The notes under the pieces are model-generated. The model saw only the letters and a list, made by a program, of their open reading frames with translations, did not search any database and was not told where the DNA came from. From Actinomycetota bacterium (GTDB lineage Bacteria; Actinomycetota; CADDZG01; WHSQ01): 39,138 nucleotides of DNA. The number at the start of each line of letters is the position of its first letter. The stretch's first letter is position 1. Of the stretch, positions 2,953 to 38,470 are shown in pieces. The stretch spans positions 1 through 39,138 of the forward strand of contig WHTI01000014.1 of NCBI GenBank assembly GCA_009377815.1, given 5' to 3'. The translations under genes and the position numbers were made by a program.

Positions 2953-3282
2953 ATGTACGCGATAGCGAAGCGATTCACGGCTGAGGAAAGGCGGACAGCT
3001 TTCGAGCTGTGGAGCGCGGGAGATGAAAACGTCTGTCCCATAGGTGCGCTGCTCCGTGCGCGATTCCACAATCAGGACTATTCCCATCCGATTCCCGAGG
3101 AAGTCGCAGCGGTGCTCGCACCGTATGACGCCAATAACGATGACTCCTTCCAAGTGTGGATGAGTGTGGATGCTGAGGCTACCCGGTTTATCAAGGACTA
3201 TGAAATCGGTCGAATGGGAAGGCTTTTGACAGCCCTTGGGCTCCGAGAGACAGACACCGAAGCCCGGGAGCTGAATCCGTGA
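2953..3282 (+). CDS. Hypothetical protein
   Basis: ATG ORF. CPIGALL motif. The stop overlaps the next GTG start. Confidence 0.6.
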   Translation: MYAIAKRFTAEERRTAFELWSAGDENVCPIGALLRARFHNQDYSHPIPEEVAAVLAPYDANNDDSFQVWMSVDAEATRFIKDYEIGRMGRLLTALGLRETDTEARELNP

Positions 3283-3497
3283 CCGACAACCAGATGCTCA
3301 CTACCGAGCAAGTTCACGAGATCAGGGAGCATGCCAGGAACGCCACCAAGCCGTCCAAGGGCCAGGTGGCGGGCCAGAGCATCACGCTCCTTGGAATAGC
3401 AATGTCCAACGTGCCCGCGTTATGCACGACTGTAGAGCTGCTTCGCCAAGAACTAGATGAATTGAAAGCGCTCATCCGGGAGCTGCAGGCCGAGTGA
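3279..3497 (+). CDS. Small protein MTDNQMLTTEQV family (copy 2)
   Basis: Paralogue of 2337-2522. Coiled-coil-like C-terminus. Confidence 0.65.
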   Translation: MTDNQMLTTEQVHEIREHARNATKPSKGQVAGQSITLLGIAMSNVPALCTTVELLRQELDELKALIRELQAE

Positions 3498-9738: not shown

Positions 9739-9951
9739 GTGGACGAACGCGAGCGCGTCCTCCGTGACCTCTGCTCCGAGATGACACGCTTCGGCGAGCG
9801 GAGACTCCGCATGGTCCGCTTCCTCTGCGATTCGCCGGAGCTGGATGGCTTCTTCACCGGTGATCTCGTCTTCCACTGTCAAGGTTCGGAGAAAGTCAAG
9901 GCACGAACGCAGCCAGCGGCACGCGAGGTCTACTTGGACCCGTTGCGATGA
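9739..9951 (+). CDS. Hypothetical small protein
   Basis: GTG-start 70-aa ORF directly after the previous gene. Confidence 0.5.
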   Translation: MDERERVLRDLCSEMTRFGERRLRMVRFLCDSPELDGFFTGDLVFHCQGSEKVKARTQPAAREVYLDPLR

Positions 9952-9961
9952 GTGCTACAAT
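9934..9961 (+). promoter_or_regulatory. Candidate sigma70-like promoter (extended -10 TGcTACAAT; -35 TTGGAC, 16-bp spacer)
   Basis: ttggac 9934-9939 and tacaat 9956-9961, with TG at 9953-9954. Confidence 0.55.
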
Positions 9962-9977
9962 GCAACCACGGAGACGC

Positions 9978-9992
9978 GCACCCTCGGGGTGC
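9978..9992 (+). other. Leader hairpin GCACCC-TCG-GGGTGC
   Basis: Perfect 6-bp stem between the promoter and the terminator. Confidence 0.6.
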
Positions 9993-10000
9993 TTACGTGA

Positions 10001-10026
10001 GCCGCCCTTCTCTGGGCGGCTTTTTT
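10001..10026 (+). terminator. Intrinsic terminator
   Basis: gccgccc-ttctct-gggcggc-tttttt. Confidence 0.9.
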
Positions 10027-10040
10027 GTTGGGCGTAATCC

Positions 10041-10460
10041 ATGGCAATGCAGCCAAAATCAGCGAAAGCCATAAAAGAGCAGCAGGACCGCTACCTCAGC
10101 GCGATGAGGAAAACGGGCACGCTCACGTCTGGGTGCAGGGCTGCCCAGTGCTCACCGACCACGGTCTACCAGTGGCGTGAGCACGATCTTGCGTTCTCGA
10201 TGGCTGAGAACGAAGCCAAGAACGCATTTGCCGACGCCCTCGAAGAGGAAGCCGTCCGGCGAGCCTGGCACGGTGTGGATAAGCCCGTCTATCAGGGCAA
10301 GGAACTGGTCGGGATGATCCGCGAATACAGCGACACGTTGCTGATCTTCTCACTCAAGGCGCTTCGTCCCGAGAAGTACCGCGACCGCTTTGACGTGCGC
10401 ACGCAGCAGGATGCGCCAGTGGTTGTGCCGATGCGCGCCGAGGATGTTGAGGTGGTATGA
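10041..10460 (+). CDS. Terminase small subunit-like (HTH)
   Basis: TSGCRAAQCSPTTVYQWREHDLAF HTH, FADALEEEAVRRAWHGVDKPVYQGKELVG...YSDTLLIFSLKALRPEKYRDRF, immediately upstream of TerL. Confidence 0.8.
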   Translation: MAMQPKSAKAIKEQQDRYLSAMRKTGTLTSGCRAAQCSPTTVYQWREHDLAFSMAENEAKNAFADALEEEAVRRAWHGVDKPVYQGKELVGMIREYSDTLLIFSLKALRPEKYRDRFDVRTQQDAPVVVPMRAEDVEVV

Positions 10461-11815
10461 CGGCTTCTACGGCGGCCCCACCTCAACCGGCGTACGTGCC
10501 GCTGGGTGCGGCTGCCGAGTTGTTCCGACTCCGAGCGCCCGAGGTGGTGATTGCCGGACCGGCGGGTACCGGGAAGAGCCGGGCCTGCCTGCAAAAGCTC
10601 ATGGTCGCTGCTGATAAGTACCGGGGTTGCCGTATCCTGATCGCACGCAAGACACGGGAGAGCTTGACGCAATCAGCGCTCGTGACCTGGGAGAAGAAAG
10701 TGCTGCCGCAAGGCTGGGAGCGGCGGATTACGTTTCACCACGAGGATCAGGAGTACCGTTTCCCAGGTGGTTCGGTGGTGGTGCTTGGCGGACTCGACAA
10801 GCCGAGCAAGATCATGTCCACCGAATTCGATCTGATCTACGTACAGGAATGCCGCGAGCTCGGTCAGGAAGACTGGGAGTCCTTGCTCTCGCGTCTTCGA
10901 CACGGCGCGATGCCGTATCAGCAAATCATCGGTGACACCAACCCGGACGCCCCGGAGCATTGGATCAAGCTGAGGGAGCGCGATGGACATATCCTGATCC
11001 TGGAGAGTCGCCACGAAGACAACCCGACGGTGACTCTGGATTACCTGGCGAAGCTCGATAGTCTCACGGGCTACCAATACCAGCGGCTCCGCCTCGGCTT
11101 GTGGGTGGCGGCCGAAGGCATGTTCTTCACCGAGTGGAATCCCGAGGTCCATATCTGCGAGCCATTCGACATACCGGCCGAGTGGACGCGCTGGACGGCC
11201 ACCGACTACGGCTTTGCTGACCCCTTCTGCACGCTGTGGTTTGCTCGATCACCGGACAGCAAGCACACCTACGTCTACCGCGAGCTTTACGCCACCGGGC
11301 TCCGTGACGAGCAGCAAGCCAAGCTGATCAAAGAGCGGTCAAGCAATGAGCGGATCGTGCGCTACGTGGGTGACCCAAGCATGTTCAACATGCGCACCGA
11401 GCAGGACAAGCCCAGCATCGCCACGGTGTATGAGGCGAACGGCGTGCGCCTCGAGAGAGGTGTGAATGACCGGCGCTCAGGCTGGCAGACGGTCCGGCGT
11501 GCCCTGGCTTGCGAGGATAGCCCGCCACGGCTCCAGGTGTTCCGGGGCCGATGCCCGAACCTCATCCGCACTCTTCCCGCAATGGTGCATGACCCGTTGG
11601 ACGCCGAGGACCTGGCCGATAAGATCAAGAGCCAGAAGACCGAGGATCACGGGGTCGATGCGCTTCGCTATGGACTCGTGGCCGAGCAGCAGGTGAACCA
11701 GACGCAGGCGCTTGCCGAGTGGGCCAAGGCGCCGGTTCGCGTCCACATTGACGCTGGTGGCGAACGGAAGCCGAAGGTTGATCAGAAGGATTGGGAGGGC
11801 ATGCGCGTTGCCTGA
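10457..11815 (+). CDS. terL: Terminase large subunit
   Basis: Walker A AGPAGTGKSR, Walker B-like FDLIYVQE, RKTRESLTQS, C-terminal nuclease-like DYGFADP...HGVDALRYGL. Confidence 0.92.
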   Translation: MTASTAAPPQPAYVPLGAAAELFRLRAPEVVIAGPAGTGKSRACLQKLMVAADKYRGCRILIARKTRESLTQSALVTWEKKVLPQGWERRITFHHEDQEYRFPGGSVVVLGGLDKPSKIMSTEFDLIYVQECRELGQEDWESLLSRLRHGAMPYQQIIGDTNPDAPEHWIKLRERDGHILILESRHEDNPTVTLDYLAKLDSLTGYQYQRLRLGLWVAAEGMFFTEWNPEVHICEPFDIPAEWTRWTATDYGFADPFCTLWFARSPDSKHTYVYRELYATGLRDEQQAKLIKERSSNERIVRYVGDPSMFNMRTEQDKPSIATVYEANGVRLERGVNDRRSGWQTVRRALACEDSPPRLQVFRGRCPNLIRTLPAMVHDPLDAEDLADKIKSQKTEDHGVDALRYGLVAEQQVNQTQALAEWAKAPVRVHIDAGGERKPKVDQKDWEGMRVA

Positions 11816-12056: not shown

Positions 12057-14088
12057 CGAACTTTCCCGCACGACGGACCTCGCAGCTCTCTGGAACGAGC
12101 GTTACCCACGTTTTCAGCAGAGCCGGCAGCAGATCGAGGTATGTGGTAAGTGGGGCCGGGGAGAAGTCAAGCCGCATCTCCCGAAGGACTGGGAGGCCCC
12201 CGAAGCCTTCACTATCGCGCTCCACCACGGTCAGACGATGGGGCAGGACGTAGCGAGCTTCGTAGGACGGAAGAAGCCGGCGGCACGAAGGCAACCACTC
12301 GGTACAGGTCCTAGAGCGGATCGCAAGACTGACCGGATTGAGAAGTGGGTGATGGCGGCGCTCAATGATTGCGTGAAGATCGAGGGCGAGCCGCTCTGGG
12401 ACACGTTCTGCGCGTTCAGCACGCACGATGCGGAGTTTGCCGTCGTTGTGACCCCTAAGCCTGCCCACTACTCCGGCATGTTGGACTTCACCAGTGAGGA
12501 CGGCGAGATCATCGCTCGCTGGCGACGGAACAAGGATGGGCTGGACGAGGACGAGTATCGTCAGCAGCATCCGCGCGCCGAGTACAGGGTCGATCACGGC
12601 AAGAGCGCCGAGGCGCACGCGGAGTACGCACGCGAATACAAGGCGCGACGCTTCCCGTTTGTCGTTCGGGTCATCCCTGCCGCTGGCTGCATTCCCTTCG
12701 GTCGCGACCCGCAGACGGGGCGCTTGACGGCGCTCCTGATCCGCACCACTCGCAGCGCCTACAGCCTCAAGAAGGACGGGTTTGAGTGGGTGGTGCACTC
12801 CGGGCCCGAGCACGAGCAGACCGCGGGCAGTGACGAGACGGGCCAGGAGTACGACCTGTACGAGCTGCTCACGCCTGGGAAGATTTGTTACCAGATCGTC
12901 GGGCTGCCGAATCGCAAGTATGCCACGTACCTCAATGGCGAGCAGGCGTACGTGGACCTCGAGGCCGAGTACGGCATTCGGGACGTGCCGGCGGGCTACT
13001 TCTACGGCTGGCACCGGGCGCACGAGACGGACCCGAACAAGAAGGGTATCCCGCTGCTGTGGCCGTTCGTGGGACTGCTAGCCGGCGCGCAGCAGATCGC
13101 CACGGCCAAGGTGGCTCATACCTACTTGACCGGCTTCGGCGGCTGGGGGATGAAGCTTGACAAGGACCTGCTCTCAGCCTGGCAGGAGATGGGCAGGCCC
13201 ACCGACTTCACCATCAAGCCCATGCAGATGCAAGTCATGCTTGGTGATCCCAAGCCACTCGTTCACGGCGGCTCCGGCCAGGAAGCCGATCAGATCATGC
13301 AGATGCTCATAGCCGTCGCCAACGACTTCAGCTTCAGCGAAGAGATCAAAGGCGACCCGAGCAACAGTGGCTTCGGCCAGGCCGTCAGTGGTGCCGCGGT
13401 AGAGACAATCCTGGGCCAGATTACGGGCGGTGCGCTCCAGGCCTGGCAGTTCACGGCCGAAGTGTTGCTCGAAGCGTGCGCAGTGCTCTCCGAGAAGATG
13501 GGCGAAGCGATCCCGCTCTACAGCCGCGTCAATGCCAAAGGCGAGCGTCAGGAACACGTGGAGCTGAGTGCGGACGACCTCGACGGCGACTTCAGCCTCA
13601 ACGTCTACCAGCCGGAACCGAAGGGCCGGAACCTCCCCAAGGCGCAGGCCGGGATCGCGTGGGCCGACGCGGGCTACATTTCCGAGCGGGAATGGCGTGA
13701 AGACTTCTACGGGGACGAGAGCCCGGACGAAGCGCTGGATCGTATCTGGGTGGAGCGGAAGCTCAAGAGTCCTGAGATCGAGCAGCAGATCATGGAGATG
13801 GTGGCTCGCATCCAGGTGGACCGGAAGCAGGCCGAGCTACGGCAGCTCGTGGGGCAGGGCAAGGTGGTACCGGGCGGCACGCCTAACGCGCTCATGCCAC
13901 CTCGGCCGGGTCAGAATGGGCAGGTCAGCCCGAACGGTCAGGACGTCACGCAGGGCGGCATGCCGATGCCGAACACGGGCAACCCGGCGCAGTCTGCCGT
14001 CGCGGGCATGATGTCAGGACCATCGCAGACAGCGGCTCAATCGAGGGTGATTCAGGCCACGGGCGAGCCGGCGGAGACGAGTTACTGA
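12049..14088 (+). CDS. Portal protein
   Basis: 679-aa ORF after TerL. FVGLLAGAQQIATAKVAHTYLTGFGGWGMKLDKD...SGAAVETILGQITGGALQAWQFTAEVLLEACA pattern. Confidence 0.82.
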   Translation: MADELSRTTDLAALWNERYPRFQQSRQQIEVCGKWGRGEVKPHLPKDWEAPEAFTIALHHGQTMGQDVASFVGRKKPAARRQPLGTGPRADRKTDRIEKWVMAALNDCVKIEGEPLWDTFCAFSTHDAEFAVVVTPKPAHYSGMLDFTSEDGEIIARWRRNKDGLDEDEYRQQHPRAEYRVDHGKSAEAHAEYAREYKARRFPFVVRVIPAAGCIPFGRDPQTGRLTALLIRTTRSAYSLKKDGFEWVVHSGPEHEQTAGSDETGQEYDLYELLTPGKICYQIVGLPNRKYATYLNGEQAYVDLEAEYGIRDVPAGYFYGWHRAHETDPNKKGIPLLWPFVGLLAGAQQIATAKVAHTYLTGFGGWGMKLDKDLLSAWQEMGRPTDFTIKPMQMQVMLGDPKPLVHGGSGQEADQIMQMLIAVANDFSFSEEIKGDPSNSGFGQAVSGAAVETILGQITGGALQAWQFTAEVLLEACAVLSEKMGEAIPLYSRVNAKGERQEHVELSADDLDGDFSLNVYQPEPKGRNLPKAQAGIAWADAGYISEREWREDFYGDESPDEALDRIWVERKLKSPEIEQQIMEMVARIQVDRKQAELRQLVGQGKVVPGGTPNALMPPRPGQNGQVSPNGQDVTQGGMPMPNTGNPAQSAVAGMMSGPSQTAAQSRVIQATGEPAETSY

Positions 14089-17526: not shown

Positions 17527-20500
17527 ATGACGCTCTATCTGCCTCGAGACACGCTCCGCACGTTCGAGGCGGAGCAGTTCGAGAAGCGCGCGAAAGAGCG
17601 CACAGCCGACGCGTGGGGTCAGAATGCGCTCAAGCAGGCCCAGGCGCGGATCAGCCAGGCGGCCAGGCTCAGGCGGGAGACACCGGCGCCTTTCCAGACA
17701 ATGCTCACGCCCCAGCGGCCCGGCCAGCCTGAAGTAGGCCTGACGCAGCGCCCAACCACGAGAACACCCGTTCTCCAGCCCCAGCGGCCCCAGCCGGAGT
17801 ATGGGCTCACGCGTCGGCGGGAAGAGCAGCCCGACCCACGCCAGGAAGAGAGCGCATTGTGGGCGGCTCAGGCTTTGGATCGGGTGAAGAATCTCCTTGG
17901 GGAAGCCAAAGATACGGCGGGGGAGAAGATCAGCCAGGGTGCGGAAGCCATCCAAACCACGCTAGGCGGTGGTGGGGAGCCCGGTGTGCTCAAGTGGGCT
18001 GACCTCATTCAGAAGAACGCCGAGAAATATGGCGTGCCCGCCAACATCATCGCGGGGCTGATGGAGATCGAGAGCAGTGGCAATCCCGAGGCGCAAAGCC
18101 CAATGAATTACGACGCTCGCGGGAATCCCATCGGACGGGCGCAAAGCCTGATGCAGGTTATGCCTTTCCACTTTCGGGAGGGCGAAAACCCGATGGACCC
18201 TGAGACGAACATGCGTGTCGCCATTGAACGGGTTCTAAAGCCGGCCTACGACCGCCTCGGTGACTGGACGAAGGCAGCCGCTGCCTACTTCGGAGCTATC
18301 GACGCTCAGGGCAACATCACAGGCGCGAGCGATGTAACGGGCACGAGTGGTAACGAGTACGTCCGTCGCTTCCAGGAGGCAGCGAGCAAGTACACCAACC
18401 TCGCTGCAATGGGCGGGCAGGCACCTGTAGACACGGAAGGCTCACCACTTGCTCGGGCCGCAGGATATGTCTTCCCGGTAGAGGGCTACACCGGCGAGAT
18501 CGATCTACACCATGGCGCGCAGGAGGGAACCGGCGGCTCGGACATCTTCGCGGCGGAAGGAACGCCGGTCAAAGTGATGCGGGGCGGCACCGTCACCTCG
18601 GCGGGCTACACCGATATCGGTGGCAACTTCGTGATGATCGAGGGGGATGACGGTAACCAGTATTACTACGCCCATATGGACCGGACGCCAGCCGTCGAGA
18701 CCGGTCAGAAGATCGGGGCAGGTGCCTACCTCGGTGGAGTAGGCGAAACAGGGAACGCCAAAGGTACCGGCGCGCATCTCCACCTAGGCGTCGGGCCGAG
18801 CATCGTGACGGGCACTGGGCCGATGGGTGGCACCGGTGGGAGCTTTGATGCCGTGGGGCTTTTGAGAAGCGTCCTTGGCGGCGAGACAGTCGAGAACCCC
18901 TCACCCAGTGTCGCAGCGCGCCCGCCGAACCCAATGCCCCGCGTATCGCCTCTGCTAGAGCGGCCGGAGCCGCTGGAGTTCCGCCGTAGGACGCCCATGG
19001 AGCCCGTAGCGCCACGAGAGCGGCGCCCGCTGATCGCGGGCATGGGATTGGACGCAGAGGCCCTCAGGAGCGGCGTAGACACGCTAGGACGCATGGCCGG
19101 CGAGACAGCCGAGACGGTTACGGAACGGGGCGGCGTGATCCTTGGGGGCGTGGCGCGTGGGGCGCAGGTCTTTGGTGAGGAAGTCGGGCGTCAGGCAGGT
19201 CTTGCTGGTCGCGAGCTCGCCCGCTTCGCCACGGACCTCGGCCAGGAAACGAGCGAGCTGCTTGCCGAGCGCATGGAGCCTGAGACAGCCCGGCGTCTTT
19301 CGCGTGCGGAGGCAGCCGTTGCCGATCCTGAACGGGCCAGAATGAACCGGCTCGCCGGCATCAGCCCGCTCGACCTGGAGATCACACGCGAGGGAACCGA
19401 GCCGTTCCGCTCGCCGGGTTACCTACAGCCCGCGTCCTACGAAGAGCAGCGCAGCCCGTATGACATGACACCTGAAGAGGCAGAGGGGCCACTGGCAGGG
19501 TTGGCGAGGTTGCCTGAGGGCGTAGGAGGCGCTGTAGAAGACGCCGCAGCCATGACACGCGGCGGGTCGGCTGCATCGTCACGCGATCAATTCCGAGAAA
19601 CATTGGCTGAGCCATTCGACGCTGACGAGTATTCATCGCGAGCACCGTTGGCCCCGGTAGCGGAAGCGGGAACAGAACTAGGGCGAGCATTCGTCCCACC
19701 CATTGGTCAGTCATCTGAAGAAGCCATGCGCCGGACCGAGACACTGGAGAACCTACGCGGCCTTGTGGAAACGCCGGGGCGCATGATTGGGGATGTTATA
19801 CGGGGAGCGGCGGAGCCGGTTGGGGAAGCCTTGGAGCCGTTTGGTCGGCTCCGGGAAGAAATGCTCCCGTCACCTCTGGAGCTTTCGATGATGTCGCCCC
19901 GAGAGCTTCGGAAGTTCCTGGATACTGAAGATGATCCAACAGGAGTCAACTTCTGGGAGATGGGAGAGCAGGCTGCCCGAACGCAGCTCGGTGCTACCGG
20001 GACCCCAACCGAGCGAGAGGTCGCGCGCTCAGCCCGGGATGCCTATCTCGCGTTCGGCGTTGCGGGCAGTGACGTATCGCGGGTTGCTAAGAATGTGCCA
20101 CGTGCACTCGCCAGTGATCCCGCCTACCAGAAGACGGCGCGCATGTACGAGAGCCCGCCCGTGGAAGAGGGCGCCAGGTCTTCTCTGTGGCGCGGATTCG
20201 TGCGACGGGCAACTGATCGCTCTATTGACCTCAAGCACTTTCAGGAGCAGGCACAGAAGAACCTGGGGCGACCGCTCAGGGCTGACGAGATGGCCTACGA
20301 GCTGAGTCGCCTGAATGCTGACTCTGCTGCTGCGGTGCGCGTCCAGAAGAGCCTCGGCCCGGCCGTGCAGAGCGTAGGGCGAGATTACAACCTGCTTACG
20401 CAGTACCTCACGCACCAGAACAACCTCGATATCGCGCGTGCGACCGGGAATGCTGATCGCGTGTTCCCCGGTGGTATCCGCGCGGCAGACTCGCAGCGCG

Positions 20501-22740
20501 TCATCGAGACGATGCAGGGCGAGCTCGCACCCCAGCGCCTTGCCAAGATCGAACAGGCCGCCGATGAGATATGGGGCTTCGGGCGCTCACTTCTGGAGCG
20601 TAAGCGGGATAGTGGTCTGATCTCGGGTGATCTCTACCAGGAACTGACACGGCGTTATCCGCATTACGTGCCGACCAAGATTCTTGATTATCTGGCTGAC
20701 ACGGAAGCACGTTTCCCGGGCCGCAAGCTGAGCGTGAACGATACCGGCCTCAAGCGGCTCACGGCTGAGGGTACATCCAAGGAACGCGAGGACCCCATCG
20801 CTTCACTCGTTCGCCTGGCCTACCAGACGGAAACGCTCACCCGGAAGAACGATGCCGCCCGGGCGTTCATTCGACTGCGGGAAGCCCACCCGGAAGGTGA
20901 ACTGATCGAAGAGCTGGTAGGCGAGACCGCTAATCGGACGGCGGGCCGCAACTTCGAGAAGATCAGCGTGTTCGAGGACGGTGCCCGCCACGTCTACCGC
21001 ATGCCTAAGCACCTTGCCGAAGCCGTGAAGATGGAGAGCACGGCGCAAGTGCCCGGCGTTTCGACCATCATGAACATCGCCCGGATGGGTATGACATCTC
21101 GGAATCCGGTCTTCCTCGCATCCAACAGCATCATGGATGCCTCCACGTTCGCGGTACGCGCGAGCCTCCGGGAAGGCGGGCCGCAGCACCTCCCGCGGGT
21201 GATGGTTGAATTGACGAAAGCCTACGTCGATACGTTCAAGGGTCTAACGCGCGGCCAGTTTGCCGGCGAGATGACGCAGCGCTACCTCGAGGGTGGCGGC
21301 GGCATGTTCGGCTTCTTCAGCCAGAACCAGAGGGGTGTTGCCGAGGCTACCCGTCACCTGCGTCGAAATGGCGTCGTGCTCGACAACGCGGAAGATGCCA
21401 TGAAGATGGTCCGCGACCTCGCAACGTTCAAGCCCATCCAGGAGATCGGCGAGCGGATCGAGCTCGCTCCGCGCGTGGCACAGATGCGGCTCGCCGAGAA
21501 GCGAGGGGCAAACGCCGTGGAGTCCGTTATCCAAGGGCGGACGGTGACGATCGACTTTGCCCAGGGCGGCACGTGGTCCAAGTTCATCAACCAGTTCGTG
21601 CCCTTCTTCAACGTGGGGATTCAATCTGGCGCACAGATTCCCAGGGCGTTCCGCGAGAATCCTAAGGCGTTTGTCGGTACGGTCGGAGCAACGCTTGTGG
21701 GTCCGACCGTAGCGGCCGAGTCCTGGAACCGCAGCGATCCGCAACGTTCACGCGACTATGAAGACGTGCCGCAGTATCTCAAGGACGCGGGTATCGTGCT
21801 CATGCTTCCAGTGGACCCTCAAGAGTCCGTAACGGGTGAGCGGCAGCCGCAGTATTTGTATATCCCCACCCGTGAATTTTCCCCCTTCGTGGTGGCGACA
21901 CGCGAGGCGGCAGGGCGCGTGCTGGGCGAGGACCCGAGGGAATGGGCCTCCTTGCTCCAAGGAGCGGCACAGTCTGTTTTGCCGGCCGAAACGGCTTTCG
22001 ATTTTGTGCCTGTCGGTCTCAGCACGGGCGTGCAGCTTCAAGCCAATGAAGACTTCTTCCGCGGTCGCAACGTCGTCTCTAAGTGGACAGAATCGGAAGC
22101 CACGGACACGGCCCATGCCATCGCTAACCTGATCGAGGAAGCGGCCCGTGCTGCCGGAGACGAACAAGCACAAGTCTCCGGTGCCGCCGTGGAGTTTGCC
22201 GTGCGGGACTACCTCGGTGGTGGCGGCGGAGCAGCCTTGGCCGCTGGCGACCTGATTGGCGCCCTCGCTTCAGGTGAAGGCATTGAGCGCCGTGACGACC
22301 GGATTCAAAGCTTGCCCGGTATCGGCGGGCTGGTTGGCCGGTTCGTGCGCGATTCCGGCGGCGAGCTCTTCTATCGAGCGCGTGATGAGCGGGTGAGCGA
22401 TGAGGCGGCCCGCGTCCTTCGCGAGCACAACCTTGATATCAACATCACTCCTGTCTCGGACACGATCAAAGGCCTGCCACTTTCACGCGCACAGCAGACG
22501 AAGTATCAGAGCACGGTGAATATCATCGTGAACGACCTGCTCCCGATGGTTGCCGAGACACCCGCCTGGCAGGCCGCGCCGCGCGAGGGCAAGGAGAAGG
22601 TGGTGCGCGAGCTCGTGAGCCGCGCGCGCGAAGCTGGCCAAGCTGTCGTGCTCCCCGACCTCGCGGAAGAGGGTGAATCAGAACGGCTTATGAAGCGGAT
22701 GGTGGAGGAGATCAGGCGGGAAGAGCGGGCGCGGCGCTAG
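17527..22740 (+). CDS. 1737-aa polyvalent virion/ejection protein with SLT transglycosylase and M23 peptidase motifs
   Basis: SLT-like MEIESSGNPEAQSP...GRAQSLMQVMPFHF; M23-like SDIFAAEGTPVKVMRGGTV...YYYAHMD...GAHLHLGVGP; C-terminal half resembles large polyvalent-protein-associated domains (SRNPVFLASNSIMDA...FINQFVPFFNVGIQ). Confidence 0.8.
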   Translation: MTLYLPRDTLRTFEAEQFEKRAKERTADAWGQNALKQAQARISQAARLRRETPAPFQTMLTPQRPGQPEVGLTQRPTTRTPVLQPQRPQPEYGLTRRREEQPDPRQEESALWAAQALDRVKNLLGEAKDTAGEKISQGAEAIQTTLGGGGEPGVLKWADLIQKNAEKYGVPANIIAGLMEIESSGNPEAQSPMNYDARGNPIGRAQSLMQVMPFHFREGENPMDPETNMRVAIERVLKPAYDRLGDWTKAAAAYFGAIDAQGNITGASDVTGTSGNEYVRRFQEAASKYTNLAAMGGQAPVDTEGSPLARAAGYVFPVEGYTGEIDLHHGAQEGTGGSDIFAAEGTPVKVMRGGTVTSAGYTDIGGNFVMIEGDDGNQYYYAHMDRTPAVETGQKIGAGAYLGGVGETGNAKGTGAHLHLGVGPSIVTGTGPMGGTGGSFDAVGLLRSVLGGETVENPSPSVAARPPNPMPRVSPLLERPEPLEFRRRTPMEPVAPRERRPLIAGMGLDAEALRSGVDTLGRMAGETAETVTERGGVILGGVARGAQVFGEEVGRQAGLAGRELARFATDLGQETSELLAERMEPETARRLSRAEAAVADPERARMNRLAGISPLDLEITREGTEPFRSPGYLQPASYEEQRSPYDMTPEEAEGPLAGLARLPEGVGGAVEDAAAMTRGGSAASSRDQFRETLAEPFDADEYSSRAPLAPVAEAGTELGRAFVPPIGQSSEEAMRRTETLENLRGLVETPGRMIGDVIRGAAEPVGEALEPFGRLREEMLPSPLELSMMSPRELRKFLDTEDDPTGVNFWEMGEQAARTQLGATGTPTEREVARSARDAYLAFGVAGSDVSRVAKNVPRALASDPAYQKTARMYESPPVEEGARSSLWRGFVRRATDRSIDLKHFQEQAQKNLGRPLRADEMAYELSRLNADSAAAVRVQKSLGPAVQSVGRDYNLLTQYLTHQNNLDIARATGNADRVFPGGIRAADSQRVIETMQGELAPQRLAKIEQAADEIWGFGRSLLERKRDSGLISGDLYQELTRRYPHYVPTKILDYLADTEARFPGRKLSVNDTGLKRLTAEGTSKEREDPIASLVRLAYQTETLTRKNDAARAFIRLREAHPEGELIEELVGETANRTAGRNFEKISVFEDGARHVYRMPKHLAEAVKMESTAQVPGVSTIMNIARMGMTSRNPVFLASNSIMDASTFAVRASLREGGPQHLPRVMVELTKAYVDTFKGLTRGQFAGEMTQRYLEGGGGMFGFFSQNQRGVAEATRHLRRNGVVLDNAEDAMKMVRDLATFKPIQEIGERIELAPRVAQMRLAEKRGANAVESVIQGRTVTIDFAQGGTWSKFINQFVPFFNVGIQSGAQIPRAFRENPKAFVGTVGATLVGPTVAAESWNRSDPQRSRDYEDVPQYLKDAGIVLMLPVDPQESVTGERQPQYLYIPTREFSPFVVATREAAGRVLGEDPREWASLLQGAAQSVLPAETAFDFVPVGLSTGVQLQANEDFFRGRNVVSKWTESEATDTAHAIANLIEEAARAAGDEQAQVSGAAVEFAVRDYLGGGGGAALAAGDLIGALASGEGIERRDDRIQSLPGIGGLVGRFVRDSGGELFYRARDERVSDEAARVLREHNLDINITPVSDTIKGLPLSRAQQTKYQSTVNIIVNDLLPMVAETPAWQAAPREGKEKVVRELVSRAREAGQAVVLPDLAEEGESERLMKRMVEEIRREERARR

Positions 22741-22925
22741 CGTCGTTGACGGTTAGCCCAAGATTCCGATGCTGCCTCAACAATAGCCGCCCCCCATGCG
22801 ATCAACATGACGATGCCGCCAAGCATCATCAGGAACTCGTGCCCCTTGTAGCCAAAGACGAGCACGATTGTCGTTGTGATGACCAGGAACGCCACGCCGC
22901 CTTTGACAACTTCTGGGTCGTTCAT
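22737..22925 (-). CDS. 62-aa membrane protein (two hydrophobic segments)
   Basis: MNDPEVVKGGVAFLVITTTIVLVFGYKGHEFLMMLGGIVMLIAWGAAIVEAASESWANRQRR. ATGA overlap with the upstream minus gene. Confidence 0.65.
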   Translation of the reverse strand: MNDPEVVKGGVAFLVITTTIVLVFGYKGHEFLMMLGGIVMLIAWGAAIVEAASESWANRQRR

Positions 22926-23791
22926 TGGATTCTTCTCACGGTGATAGTTCGATCTACCCCCTCGACCACCATCTGCCACTGCCCACCATCGCGGTAGATC
23001 AGAACTTCGGGTCGATATGCATAGTGGTAGTGATAGTCGTAGGACACCTGCTGCCAGATTTGGCCGTTCGTAAGTTGAAAGATCGTGTCGCCGTCCCAGC
23101 CGGTGAATTCACCGTCAATCCTGGATTCAATGGCCCTCTCGGTGGGGACAGGGGGCGGGGGAGGCGCGGGATCTGGTGATAGGAATTCCAATCCAAGTGC
23201 CGCTCCGTCTCGCGTGATCACTGCTCCTGCCTCGGTTGCATCGTGGTAGACCGCGAGCACGAAGACATCATTTGACGAAAGATGCCAGCCTGCGACCGAG
23301 TTGGATGGGTAAACGCAGAAGTAAAGCTCTATATGATCAATGGAGTCCCAGACGCATTCAGTTGGATTTTCTCCTCGAAACGCAGGACCTATGACTTCCG
23401 GTGTTGGCTCTAGGAACGATTCGGCGGGGACAGGAACAACACCCCGCTCGTAACCAGGGGGATCAATGCTGTCGCCCGTCCAGTACACTAGCCCTTCGGG
23501 GGTGAGCCCCCAATGGTTCCACCCATCGGTAAACGTCGGGGTGTTCGTGGAGGCGCGATAGAAGGCCAGGCCGTATGTCGTGTTCTGAAGCGTGTCGCCT
23601 GAGCCGCTCGGGTCGCCATACTCACAGGTGAGCGGGTCGCCCATCCCAGCGCCTAGCTCCGCTTTCAGGGCGGCGAAACCAAATTGGTAGCCCGGCGTTT
23701 CCCCCGGTTGGCAGTAGGGCGCTGCTTGAGCCGCCACGGCGGCTGGAACAACGAGGCTCAGTAAGAACGCCGCGATCAAAGGTATGCGCAT
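22922..23791 (-). CDS. Secreted protein, moron-like cargo gene
   Basis: Signal peptide MRIPLIAAFLLSLVVPAAVAAQA. C-terminal domain ESRIDGEFTGWDGDTIFQLTNGQIWQQVSYDYHYHYAYRPEVLIYRDGGQWQMVVEGVDRTITVRRI. RBS gggagag. Confidence 0.75.
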   Translation of the reverse strand: MRIPLIAAFLLSLVVPAAVAAQAAPYCQPGETPGYQFGFAALKAELGAGMGDPLTCEYGDPSGSGDTLQNTTYGLAFYRASTNTPTFTDGWNHWGLTPEGLVYWTGDSIDPPGYERGVVPVPAESFLEPTPEVIGPAFRGENPTECVWDSIDHIELYFCVYPSNSVAGWHLSSNDVFVLAVYHDATEAGAVITRDGAALGLEFLSPDPAPPPPPVPTERAIESRIDGEFTGWDGDTIFQLTNGQIWQQVSYDYHYHYAYRPEVLIYRDGGQWQMVVEGVDRTITVRRIQ

Positions 23792-23824: not shown

Positions 23825-23853
23825 TTGCCAAGCAAAAGTACAGAGCGTATGAT
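23825..23853 (+). promoter_or_regulatory. Candidate sigma70-like promoter TTGCCA-17-TATGAT
   Basis: ttgcca 23825-23830, 17-bp spacer, tatgat 23848-23853. Confidence 0.65.
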
Positions 23854-23869
23854 GTAGGTACTCAGGCGC

Positions 23870-23885
23870 CCCAGGACTTCCTGGG
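23870..23885 (+). other. Leader hairpin CCCAGG-ACTT-CCTGGG
   Basis: Perfect 6-bp stem between the promoter and the terminator. Confidence 0.6.
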
Positions 23886-23892
23886 ACAACGC

Positions 23893-23928
23893 AAGGAGCT
23901 TCTCCCGAAAGGGAGCAGCTCCTTTTTT
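23893..23928 (+). terminator. Intrinsic terminator with GAAA tetraloop
   Basis: aaggagct-t-ctccc-gaaa-gggag-ca-agctcc, then tttttt. Confidence 0.88.
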
Positions 23929-23967
23929 GTTGCCCAGCATCCGGGGTGCCAGGAGAGGAAAGGCACT

Positions 23968-24864
23968 ATGGCTGAACCCGGTACTGAGCAGGCGAACACG
24001 ACGGAGACCGGACCCGCTCCATCCCAACCGAGCGCTGATCCCGAAGCTAACCTGGATGCCGCGATGGCCCAGGCGCTCGAAGCGATCAACGCGGAGGCTG
24101 GGGAAGAGTCGCAGGAGGGAACGTCGGATCAGACTGACCAGACGGGAAAGGCCACGCCCAAGGAACCCGATCCAGAATCCGGAGAGGACGAGGAATCGCA
24201 GGACGAGGGTGCCACGCCAGAGGGCCAGAAGCCGCCGCGGAGAGCGGCGCCAAAGCTGGCCGAACAACTCACGCAAGCCGAGCAGCGCACACGCGAGTAT
24301 CACGCGCAGCTTCAGCAGCGGGAGACAGCCGATCAACAGGTTCTTCAGCAGTTTTCTAAGCTCACCGGCACCGACCAGGAGCTCCAGGACCTCACGGATA
24401 GGGGGCTCCGGGGTGATGATCAGGCCGCTGAGCGGGCGCAGGCCATGAAAGAGTGGCGGAAGGTGCTTCCCCCGCTCTATCGGCACGCACAGAGTCGCGT
24501 GTTTGGCGACTTCGCGCAAGGTTTCTCAGAGCTCCGGACGCTCGAAGGCATGGATGGGGACACCCATCAGGCCCTCATGGCGGAAAAAAGCCCTCTTGAA
24601 GCCATGAAGAAAATGCATCAAGCGGGCGAGAAAGCCGCGCGCGAACGCCTCGAGGGCGAGCTTCAGGCCCTACGGCAGGAAGTGAAGACCCTCAAAGCCA
24701 AGGGCGCGGCCAATGGACGACAGCCCGCGGCGGGCGGGGGCCAGACCTCCGGCACGCCGGCCATGCTCTCACGATTGCTGGACCCCAAGACCGGTCTTCC
24801 CACGGACGAAGCTGAGCAACTCGCCATGAGTGGTGCGCTGAGCGGCGTTGATCTCAACGCCTAG
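23968..24864 (+). CDS. Putative scaffolding protein
   Basis: Acidic, Gln/Glu-rich, directly upstream of the coat gene. Confidence 0.7.
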   Translation: MAEPGTEQANTTETGPAPSQPSADPEANLDAAMAQALEAINAEAGEESQEGTSDQTDQTGKATPKEPDPESGEDEESQDEGATPEGQKPPRRAAPKLAEQLTQAEQRTREYHAQLQQRETADQQVLQQFSKLTGTDQELQDLTDRGLRGDDQAAERAQAMKEWRKVLPPLYRHAQSRVFGDFAQGFSELRTLEGMDGDTHQALMAEKSPLEAMKKMHQAGEKAARERLEGELQALRQEVKTLKAKGAANGRQPAAGGGQTSGTPAMLSRLLDPKTGLPTDEAEQLAMSGALSGVDLNA

Positions 24865-24873
24865 GAGTAACCC

Positions 24874-25839
24874 GTGGCACTTAACACCTACACCAGCCTG
24901 ACCAACGAGCAGCGTTCGTACTACGAAATGCTGCTCATCAAGCGGCTCCTGCCGTTTCTGCCGGCCCTTCAGGACGGGCAGAAGGGCACGGTTCCGAAGG
25001 GCAAGGGCCTCACCGTCGAGTGGCGGAAGTTCGCGGCTTTCAGCTTAGCGACGACCGCGCTGACCGAGGGCACGCCGCCTACTGAGAATGATCTGACGAT
25101 CACCAAGGTGACGGCCGACCTCGACCAGTACGGCGCGTGGTCGAAGCATTCCGACATTCTCCTCGTGGCCGGCATCGACCCCGTTCTCCAGGAAGTGATC
25201 GGGCTGCATGGCGAGCAGGCCGGGCAGAGCTTCCACAGTTTGCTCATGACCGAGCTCGCTTCCGGGTCTAGCGTCCGGTACGCCGATACCGCTACCAGTC
25301 GAGTCACCGTGGCGGCAGGCATGAATCTCAGCATGGATGAGGTGCGACTCGTCGTCCGGGACCTGGAGAGCAACAACGTTCCCCGCTACCCGGATGGGTA
25401 CTACCGGGCCATCATCGATCCGAAGCAGGCGTACGACCTTATGGCCGAGACGGGCGCCGGTGGCTGGCAGGATGTCCAGAAGTACACCAGCAATGAGCCG
25501 TTGCTTCGGGGTGAGATCGGACGCGCTCACGGAGTGCGCTTCCGGACCAGCACGCAGGCTCCGGTCTTCGCCGGCGATGGTGCGGCCGGTATTGATGTGT
25601 ACGCGGGGCTGTTCTACGGGCCACAAGCTTGGGGACAGCGTGACTTGGCGACCCAGACGATGGGCAACGTCAACGCGGAAAGCAACCGCGGCGTCAGCGT
25701 CCACGTGGTGCCAGTTGATAGCCCGAGCAAACAGGACCCGCTGAACCAGTATGGGATCGCCGGCTGGAAGGCGGCCCTTGTCTTCAAGGTGCTGGATTCG
25801 GCCCGGATCGTCCGTCTGGAAACGGCCGTCACGGCATAA
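24874..25839 (+). CDS. Major capsid protein, N4-gp56-like family
   Basis: YYEMLLIKRLLPFLPALQDGQKGTVPKGKGLTVEWRKFAAFSLATTALTEGTPPTENDLTITKVTADLDQYGAW...IDPVLQEVIGLHGEQAG. Confidence 0.85.
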   Translation: MALNTYTSLTNEQRSYYEMLLIKRLLPFLPALQDGQKGTVPKGKGLTVEWRKFAAFSLATTALTEGTPPTENDLTITKVTADLDQYGAWSKHSDILLVAGIDPVLQEVIGLHGEQAGQSFHSLLMTELASGSSVRYADTATSRVTVAAGMNLSMDEVRLVVRDLESNNVPRYPDGYYRAIIDPKQAYDLMAETGAGGWQDVQKYTSNEPLLRGEIGRAHGVRFRTSTQAPVFAGDGAAGIDVYAGLFYGPQAWGQRDLATQTMGNVNAESNRGVSVHVVPVDSPSKQDPLNQYGIAGWKAALVFKVLDSARIVRLETAVTA

Positions 25840-37899: not shown

Positions 37900-38433
37900 T
37901 TAGGCGGCCTGGCGCTCTGGCTCGGGCCGAGACGGTGCAAAAGGGACGACGTTCGGCGGCAATTCCGGCTCACCATAATGTGAAGTATGGGGCGGATTAG
38001 TTCTTACAGAACCCTCGTTTCGGTGCAATTCGGTACGGCCGCCTTCATCTCCCCTTTCGGCCACGGCGACGCCTTCTGAGGGCACCGGGGGCTCGGGGCG
38101 CCGGTGGGCTGCGCTCATCTCCGCAATCAGGACGAGCGAGCTGCGATGGGCGTCCGGGATGTGATCCCACAGACGGACGACACGACTGAGCTGAGGATCG
38201 GATGATGCAACCGGAGACGGTTCGCCAATCTCCGCGTAGAGTTCGCCAACAGTCATACCCAGGCCGGCGGCGATCTTTCGCATGGTTTTCTCGGTGAGGT
38301 TTGTGCGCTCGCCGCGGATGATCTGGTAGGTGTGTGAGGTACTCATCCCTACGCGCTTGGCGAACGACTCCGGCGATTGGCCGCGTATGTGGAGCTCGCG
38401 CTCCAGCAACGCGCCCAGTCGGGTGGTGCGCAT
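37900..38433 (-). CDS. XRE-family (CI-like) repressor
   Basis: FAKRVGMSTSHTYQIIRGERTNLTEKTMRKIAAGLGMTVGELYAEIGEP HTH. AGGAGG 9 nt upstream of ATG 38433. Confidence 0.82.
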   Translation of the reverse strand: MRTTRLGALLERELHIRGQSPESFAKRVGMSTSHTYQIIRGERTNLTEKTMRKIAAGLGMTVGELYAEIGEPSPVASSDPQLSRVVRLWDHIPDAHRSSLVLIAEMSAAHRRPEPPVPSEGVAVAERGDEGGRTELHRNEGSVRTNPPHTSHYGEPELPPNVVPFAPSRPEPERQAA

Positions 38434-38470
38434 ATGCATAATCCTCCTGCCTTGCATCGTATAGCAGTGC

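Follow-up and report, generated by a model that had tools for sequence, protein, structure and literature searches.

The phage contig and its gene content

The window analyzed here is the whole stretch of 39,138 nucleotides of an Actinomycetota contig, and the end of the window is a 141-bp direct repeat of its start. Given this end-to-start repeat, we take the window to be a phage genome that is complete and circular, with a length of 38,997 bp. It has a GC content of 62.8% and was binned within a 3.6-Mb assembly.

On the plus strand, the small and large terminase subunits, TerS (10041-10460) and TerL (10457-11815), were both identified by PHROG matches, and together (10041..11815, +) they are the first genes behind a leader that we refer to as the terminase leader. 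A 1737-aa protein with SLT and M23 domains is encoded at 17527-22740 (+). Between this first late block and the second leader, the scaffold leader, sits a pair of minus-strand genes (22737..23791) encoding a small membrane protein (22737-22979, -) and an exported protein (22922-23791, -). The scaffold leader is followed by a scaffold-like gene of 298 aa (23968..24864, +), named for its position and its similarity to an ORF before the capsid gene in a relative, G406, and then by the major capsid gene (24874-25839, +; PHROG match to phrog_1357). The window also encodes a DUF3987 protein and a Cro/C1-type repressor (37900-38457, -). Among the scanned window ORFs we found no sigma factor or polymerase gene, so the phage is likely transcribed by the host polymerase. 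A putative Ogr/Delta-type zinc finger at 37819-37637 (-) was dropped, PF04606 being absent from the families listed. We also noted an 85-nt direct repeat with 78% identity (2324-2408 and 3266-3350) that lies over similar gene starts.

Two leaders with the same layout

The scaffold leader begins with a promoter-like site at 23825..23853 (+), composed of TTGCCA (23825-23830), a 17-nt spacer and TATGAT (23848-23853), which matches the consensus at 10 of 12 positions. It is followed by a first hairpin at 23866..23892 (+), taken from the fold of the terminated RNA with an inferred start site, which has an outer helix of 3 bp (GCG/CGC) and an inner helix of 6 bp (CCCAGG-ACTT-CCTGGG, 23870-23885). 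Without any spacer comes a predicted intrinsic terminator at 23893..23932 (+), AAGGAGCT-T-CTCCC-GAAA-GGGAG-C-AGCTCCTT with the tail TTTTTTGTTG; its hairpin (23893-23924) has a GAAA loop and a folding energy of -22.4 kcal/mol, its T6 tract lies at 23923-23928, and the scaffold ATG is at 23968. Every motif that the initial annotation placed in this leader is present. Its further point, that no upstream plus-strand operon accounts for the terminator, also holds, since the nearest plus-strand gene ends at 22740, 1.15 kb before the terminator, and the genes in between are on the minus strand.

The promoter-like site of the terminase leader (9933..9961, +) has an extended -10, TGC-TACAAT (-10 at 9956-9961), and a poorly defined -35. 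The first hairpin of its terminated RNA (9974..9998, +) has an outer helix of 3 bp (ACG/CGT) and an inner helix of 6 bp (GCACCC-TCG-GGGTGC), and the predicted intrinsic terminator (9999..10030, +) is GAGCCGCCC-TTCTCT-GGGCGGCTT, again with the tail TTTTTTGTTG. This terminator lies ~50 nt past the last early gene, and 20 nt separate its T-tract from the TerS ATG (10041).

The terminated RNAs of the two leaders fold into the same dot-bracket layout from different stem sequences, as the initial annotation had proposed in describing parallel leaders without common stem sequences at the heads of both late blocks. From the 5' end, 6-7 unpaired nt lead into a 3-bp helix, which a 1-nt bulge separates from a 6-bp helix capped by a 3-4-nt loop; on the 3' side there is a 3-4-nt bulge, after which the 3-bp helix closes and the terminator follows without a spacer. 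This is a comparison of two sequences in which pairing is kept, with inferred start sites and no covariation test. A perfect hairpin of at least 6 bp before a terminator is expected by chance in 2.5-3% of cases per leader, which weakens the idea that the first hairpin is remarkable in itself.

In the read-through RNA, longer-range pairing is predicted to replace the first hairpin. For the scaffold leader the prediction is a longer rod (z -6.25) whose arms pair better than 98.7% of shuffles, while the closing arms around the terminase leader pair no better than shuffles (p = 0.6). We saw no obvious competing antiterminator helix in either leader, and the minimum free energy folds of both terminated RNAs contain the terminator, and this makes a simple RNA switch less likely; the best upstream-to-terminator duplexes are -22.0 and -16.6 kcal/mol, computed without co-transcriptional folding. 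No Rfam family matched in the window. Classical attenuation is weakened as an explanation, the competing helix not being obvious, and the term attenuator, which the initial annotation used for these leaders, is too strong in the sense of an RNA switch.

The initial annotation had also noted that both leaders end in one sequence, and TTTTTTGTTG is indeed the tail of both. It occurs exactly twice in the window, at 10021 and 23923, where shuffled sequences lead us to expect none, and three times in the 3.6-Mb assembly, compared to 17 occurrences of TTTTTTG. Local alignment of the two leaders gives CTTTTTTGTTG as the sole common sequence. The third copy of TTTTTTGTTG is the tail of the terminator behind a host SAM riboswitch (Rfam RF00162; contig C371, locus L140, 1669-1500, -), ~43 nt from the next start codon. 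In Rfam searches outside the window, the only matches were a tRNA and this riboswitch. In the riboswitch the tail is thus on a terminator that is conditionally bypassed, although a single host example proves nothing.

Ranking of promoters and terminators

We ranked promoter-like sites genome-wide by their -10, extended -10 and -35 matches, with a bonus for an extended -10. The two best sites on the plus strand are those of the two leaders (9956 and 23848, with scores of 11 and 10), the terminase-leader site ranking first and the scaffold-leader site second, and every other plus-strand site scores 8 or less. For an 85-nt slot upstream of a random point, the probability of a score of at least 10 is 0.004, but this scoring scheme was devised after both leaders were known and the ranking is therefore not a blind test. 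A preset consensus promoter scan showed no excess (2 found, 3.1 expected). Independently of the promoter ranking, the two strongest sites on the plus strand with a hairpin followed by a T-tract are again the two leaders.

No promoter-like site was found between the T-tract and the ATG in either leader (20 nt for TerS, 45 nt for the scaffold gene), so plus-strand transcripts that reach TerS or the scaffold gene must cross a terminator, an argument that covers recognized promoter types, since other types could escape the scan. By sequence criteria, then, both leaders have the order promoter, intrinsic terminator and late gene, with nothing promoter-like in between. We infer that the promoters and terminators of both leaders are functional and that read-through is regulated.

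On the minus strand, the best promoter-like site (TGC-TAAAAT, -10 at 493) is followed at 467-436 by a strong hairpin with TTTCTCTT. The two make up a third promoter-terminator unit (496-428), which lies in antisense orientation within the early region. This unit overlaps the start of a predicted plus-strand gene and may be due to chance. The second-best minus-strand site (TGA-TAGAAT, 37354-37281) falls at the end of the late genes and is followed by a hairpin, GAAGCCGCC/GGCGGCTTC, with no T-tract.

A syntenic relative retains the terminase leader

Close relatives of this phage are rare, and the only syntenic one that we found is G406, an IMG/VR contig (loci L018 and L120-L122). Its portal-like, scaffold, capsid and downstream genes match those of the window at ~32-50% identity over the matched parts. 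In contrast, its TerS, which was assigned from position and matched no PHROG family, has no similarity to the TerS of the window, and its TerL matches with an E-value of 0.003 over 59 residues only.

The G406 TerS leader has TATGAT, a CGCGC/GCGCG hairpin and the terminator ACGGCCCCGCCCATCTCAGGGCGAGGGCCG-TTTTTTGTTG, which is the strongest found in that contig, with 15 nt from the T-tract to the ATG. Its -35 is weak. The terminator core CGCCC-NTCTCN-GGGCG and the tail TTTTTTGTTG are common to this leader and the terminase leader of the window, and the alignment score of the two was reached by none of 1000 shuffles. Given that the leader is kept while the terminase genes are very different, the leader has been retained more than the genes behind it.

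The scaffold locus of G406 matches the local layout of the window, with a large gene, a small minus-strand membrane protein at the equivalent place, a TGC-TAGACT box, a strong rod hairpin and the scaffold gene. This leader has the -10-like box and the rod hairpin but no T-tract, which means that the paired switch is not strictly conserved. The common late-gene switch that the initial annotation suggested thus fares differently at its two ends, in that the layout of the TerS leader is kept in G406 while the T-tract of the scaffold leader is absent there and the terminator is missing in other relatives of the terminase. In another relative, G407 (locus L019), TGC-TAGACT precedes a rod of ordinary stability (z -1.27). 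We also noted that these two diverged phages share an identical TGCTAGACTA box (L018 at 4971 and L019 at 4931) located ~80-130 nt before the scaffold start.

Leaders in other relatives and in the wider capsid family

Two relatives of the window terminase (L005 and L009) have one common leader with a T6 terminator before TerL, with a weak -10 (TACACT) only and no separate first hairpin in the fold, and three others (L003, L004 and L098) have no terminator before the terminase. The initial annotation had named as counter-evidence relatives that keep the terminator and lack the promoter or first hairpin; we did not clearly find such a case, L005 and L009 being the nearest, and the layout is not universal. 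By inspection, no terminator was seen in the relatives of the G406 large terminase (L142-L144). Four contigs considered as holders of a promoter-terminator leader of the window's type (G405, G016, G017 and G407) were rejected or weakened. Searches with the capsid query alone in IMG/VR, and with the terminase and portal-like queries against genome contigs, were unproductive, and the capsid protein gave one weak partial match against 398 genomes of the phylum.

Of 68 distinct loci in the wider capsid family, 15 carry an intrinsic terminator no more than 250 nt ahead of the predicted scaffold gene, compared to 2.6 expected. The binomial p of 3e-8 is optimistic, since the prediction of gene starts was mechanical, two loci with a terminator are doubtful (L036 and L070) and the loci are related. 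Terminators were found upstream of the terminase genes in 8 of 22 loci. In some of these loci (L049 and L057) a promoter comes after the terminator, which is ordinary insulation, so the position of a terminator is by itself no proof of gating; the promoter-before-terminator order of the window does imply it.

Several other elements were observed in these phages. An element near GACACTTCGGAAAGACGATGAG recurs upstream of TerS and/or the scaffold gene in five capsid-family phages (L050, L083, L089, L069 and L096), just before the ribosome-binding site of late genes, sometimes twice, and in the group it stands before both TerS and the scaffold gene. It had no Rfam match in the loci scanned and is possibly a late-gene leader element. 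In Bacillus-type phages (L041, L062, L074 and L087), a small hairpin with the loop CAACCATAG, for example TTCCCAACCATAGGAAAAGG, overlaps the ribosome-binding site upstream of the scaffold gene. In G407 (L123-L125), near 13043 (-), a promoter-like site is followed by two overlapping hairpins, CAGGCGG/CCGCCTG and then CGCCTGGTG/CACCAGGCG, and by ATTTCGTG; the hairpins are apparently mutually exclusive and, by eye, attenuator-like.

A candidate read-through factor

When all ORFs of at least 35 aa in the window and G406 were compared at the protein level, the genes in common were structural, with one plausible exception. This is a 70-aa ORF at 9739..9951 (+), which ends immediately ahead of the extended -10 in the terminase leader. 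It is not a zinc ribbon, the kind of small protein that the initial annotation had singled out for read-through tests. It matches a 67-aa ORF located two genes upstream of the TerS leader in G406 with an E-value of 0.0025, a value expected about once by chance in this comparison and at which the other matches look like chance. The two ORFs have the motif G[EK]RRLRM in common, and none of 3000 shuffles in the control matched as well. Based on the matching position and the shuffle control, homology of the two is likely but not certain.

No further homologs of the 70-aa protein were found, matches outside the window being short partial matches in larger frames. It has no sequence match in the PDB, where a sequence search could miss an analogue of the antitermination protein P7, and no PHROG family; in a fold search with a low-confidence model all E-values were above 0.6, and a second model had a pLDDT of 61. 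The gene at 9739-9951 is the best candidate for a read-through factor, and its role is a guess. Among the scanned window ORFs we recognized no known antiterminator family (Pfam, PHROG), in a search that would miss very diverged Q proteins.

Interpretation of the two leaders

The leaders are real, unlikely to be due to chance and functionally plausible, and judged from the DNA they are best read as terminator-gated late leaders. In the mechanism that we propose, each leader would be a late promoter gated by a terminator. Host RNA polymerase would start at the leader promoter and, by default, would stop at the intrinsic terminator ahead of the first gene, releasing a structured RNA of ~60-70 nt. 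A factor from the phage or the host that joins the polymerase late in infection, at the promoter or shortly beyond it, would allow read-through, and both the terminase block and the scaffold/capsid block would be turned on at once. We give about an even chance to this reading, in which default termination at terminator-gated late promoters may be relieved by promoter-proximal antitermination.

Several observations lead to this reading: the top two plus-strand promoters coincide with the top two plus-strand terminators, both terminated RNAs have the same predicted fold, no promoter-like site lies between T-tract and ATG, and the scan of the ORFs turned up neither a sigma factor nor a polymerase gene. 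In addition, G406 keeps the promoter, hairpin and terminator of the TerS leader, with the core and the TTTTTTGTTG tail, despite a very different TerS and TerL, the terminator of the host SAM riboswitch ends in the same tail, and the layout matches the targets of P7, Q and AlpA. Against it stand the G406 scaffold leader without a T-tract, the three terminase relatives without a terminator (L003, L004 and L098), the weak -35 of the G406 TerS promoter, and the fact that no known antiterminator was recognized. By inspection, no loading site common to both promoters is obvious and no -10-like pause element is evident, which also count against the gate.

Leaky terminators without any switch would explain the same arrangement if the promoters were always on, a fixed fraction of transcripts were stopped, and timing came from promoter access or template number. 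Such an explanation needs no factor, in keeping with the failure to find known antiterminator families, and many loci of the wider capsid family (15 of 68, 2.6 expected) have a terminator upstream of the scaffold gene. We consider it unlikely, since the two terminators are the strongest of the plus strand, which fits a gate better, strong termination before the most highly needed proteins would be costly, and the TerS leader is retained in G406 before very different terminase genes.

Somewhat less probable again is that these are ordinary terminators with chance promoters, the one in the terminase leader ending the early operon and the one in the scaffold leader stopping stray transcription, while the real late promoters are of an unrecognized type. 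The terminator of the terminase leader does lie ~50 nt after the last early gene, the preset consensus scan showed no promoter excess, and L049 and L057 have the promoter after the terminator. The terminator of the scaffold leader, however, lies 1.15 kb past the nearest plus-strand gene, across minus-strand genes, and the best two plus-strand promoters fall in the leader slots with nothing promoter-like after the terminators.

The two leaders could instead be small-RNA genes, in which the terminated RNA of 60-70 nt acts in trans and read-through into mRNA is secondary. There is a precedent in IsrK of the prophage Gifsy-1, a promoter-terminator unit that yields both a short RNA ending at the terminator and an mRNA made by read-through (PMC4825925). 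The window has two structured terminated RNAs of matching layout, and its minus-strand unit near 496-428 is not directly before a gene, although that unit overlaps a predicted gene start and may be chance. Both plus-strand units are 20-45 nt from late-gene start codons with no other promoter, and the stem sequences differ between the leaders whereas a trans-acting RNA would often need conservation, so we regard this explanation as improbable; IsrK itself resembles the leaders in its organization but controls an antirepressor/AntQ module and not structural genes.

Slightly more improbable still is a put-like RNA, in which the nascent leader would bind polymerase and confer terminator resistance with no protein: at the start of the transcript, both leaders do have a bulged stem that directly adjoins another one, and putL likewise forms two stems immediately downstream of its promoter (PMC9378689), but here the second stem is the terminator itself, leaving little RNA available in time, putRNAs are similar to each other in sequence while these leader stems are not, and no Rfam match was found in the window.

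Comparison with known systems

The terminator-gated reading has precedents. The lambda Q gene sits just upstream of the late promoter, and our candidate gene is likewise just upstream of a late promoter. The window also resembles lambda and phage 21 (PR' - tR') in having a late promoter, a short leader, an intrinsic terminator and then the late genes. For Q to act, the promoter must carry a binding element, and a -10-like pause element must lie among the first transcribed bases (PMC6606751). By inspection, an NANNAT-like pause element is absent between the -10 and the first hairpin in both leaders, and the window has two leaders where lambda and phage 21 have one. Given that a pause element is not evident and that no Q family protein was found, the leaders are not assignable to the Q type.

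In Xp10, intrinsic terminators lie before late genes, the host RNA polymerase transcribes them, and the phage protein P7 enables bypass (PMC6624301). The likeness is in the terminators before late genes and in a small phage protein, which is the candidate here too, but we found no P7 homolog in the window, and the window has two leaders, each with its terminator within ~70 nt of its own promoter. In Pseudomonas aeruginosa, AlpA acts on two target operons, in both of which a terminator lies between the first gene and the nearby promoter; one of these terminators begins 26 bp after the start site (PMC7969949). The pair of targets with promoter-proximal intrinsic terminators is as in the window; the AlpA targets, however, are not phage late genes and AlpA needs a binding element between the -35 and -10, whereas by inspection no element common to both -35/-10 spacers is obvious in the leaders, nor was an AlpA homolog found. 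The put elements of HK022 form a two-stem leader RNA at the start of phage transcripts and are used twice per genome (PMC9378689), like the two stem-loops and two copies seen here, but they are alike in sequence, are not terminators and serve early genes, whereas in the window the second stem is a terminator and the stem sequences differ between the leaders.

The initial annotation called the switch possibly undescribed, which goes too far, as a bypassed promoter-proximal terminator is known before late genes (Xp10 P7 and lambda/21 Q) and elsewhere (AlpA). We found no paper on the exact layout in PubMed Central, outside which most of the subscription literature lies. The promoter-terminator gate is known; what is new is this instance, its duplication and its putative factor. 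A more specific proposal is a two-leader late switch of an uncultured phage lineage, in which both blocks are gated by structurally matched hairpin-terminator leaders and are released together by a new antiterminator of ~70 aa, whose gene adjoins the terminase leader and which is related to none of Q, P7, gp39 and AlpA. We regard this fuller version as doubtful.

The promoter, hairpin and terminator make a short, testable cassette, and TTTTTTGTTG is a sequence tag for finding more of them. Operon calling based on terminators would cut the late operons of such phages in the wrong place. Late-gene antitermination is understood in a few phages with cultured hosts. If the gate is true, it would bring an uncultured lineage into this picture, one whose leader is duplicated in matching structure and whose candidate factor differs from those known.
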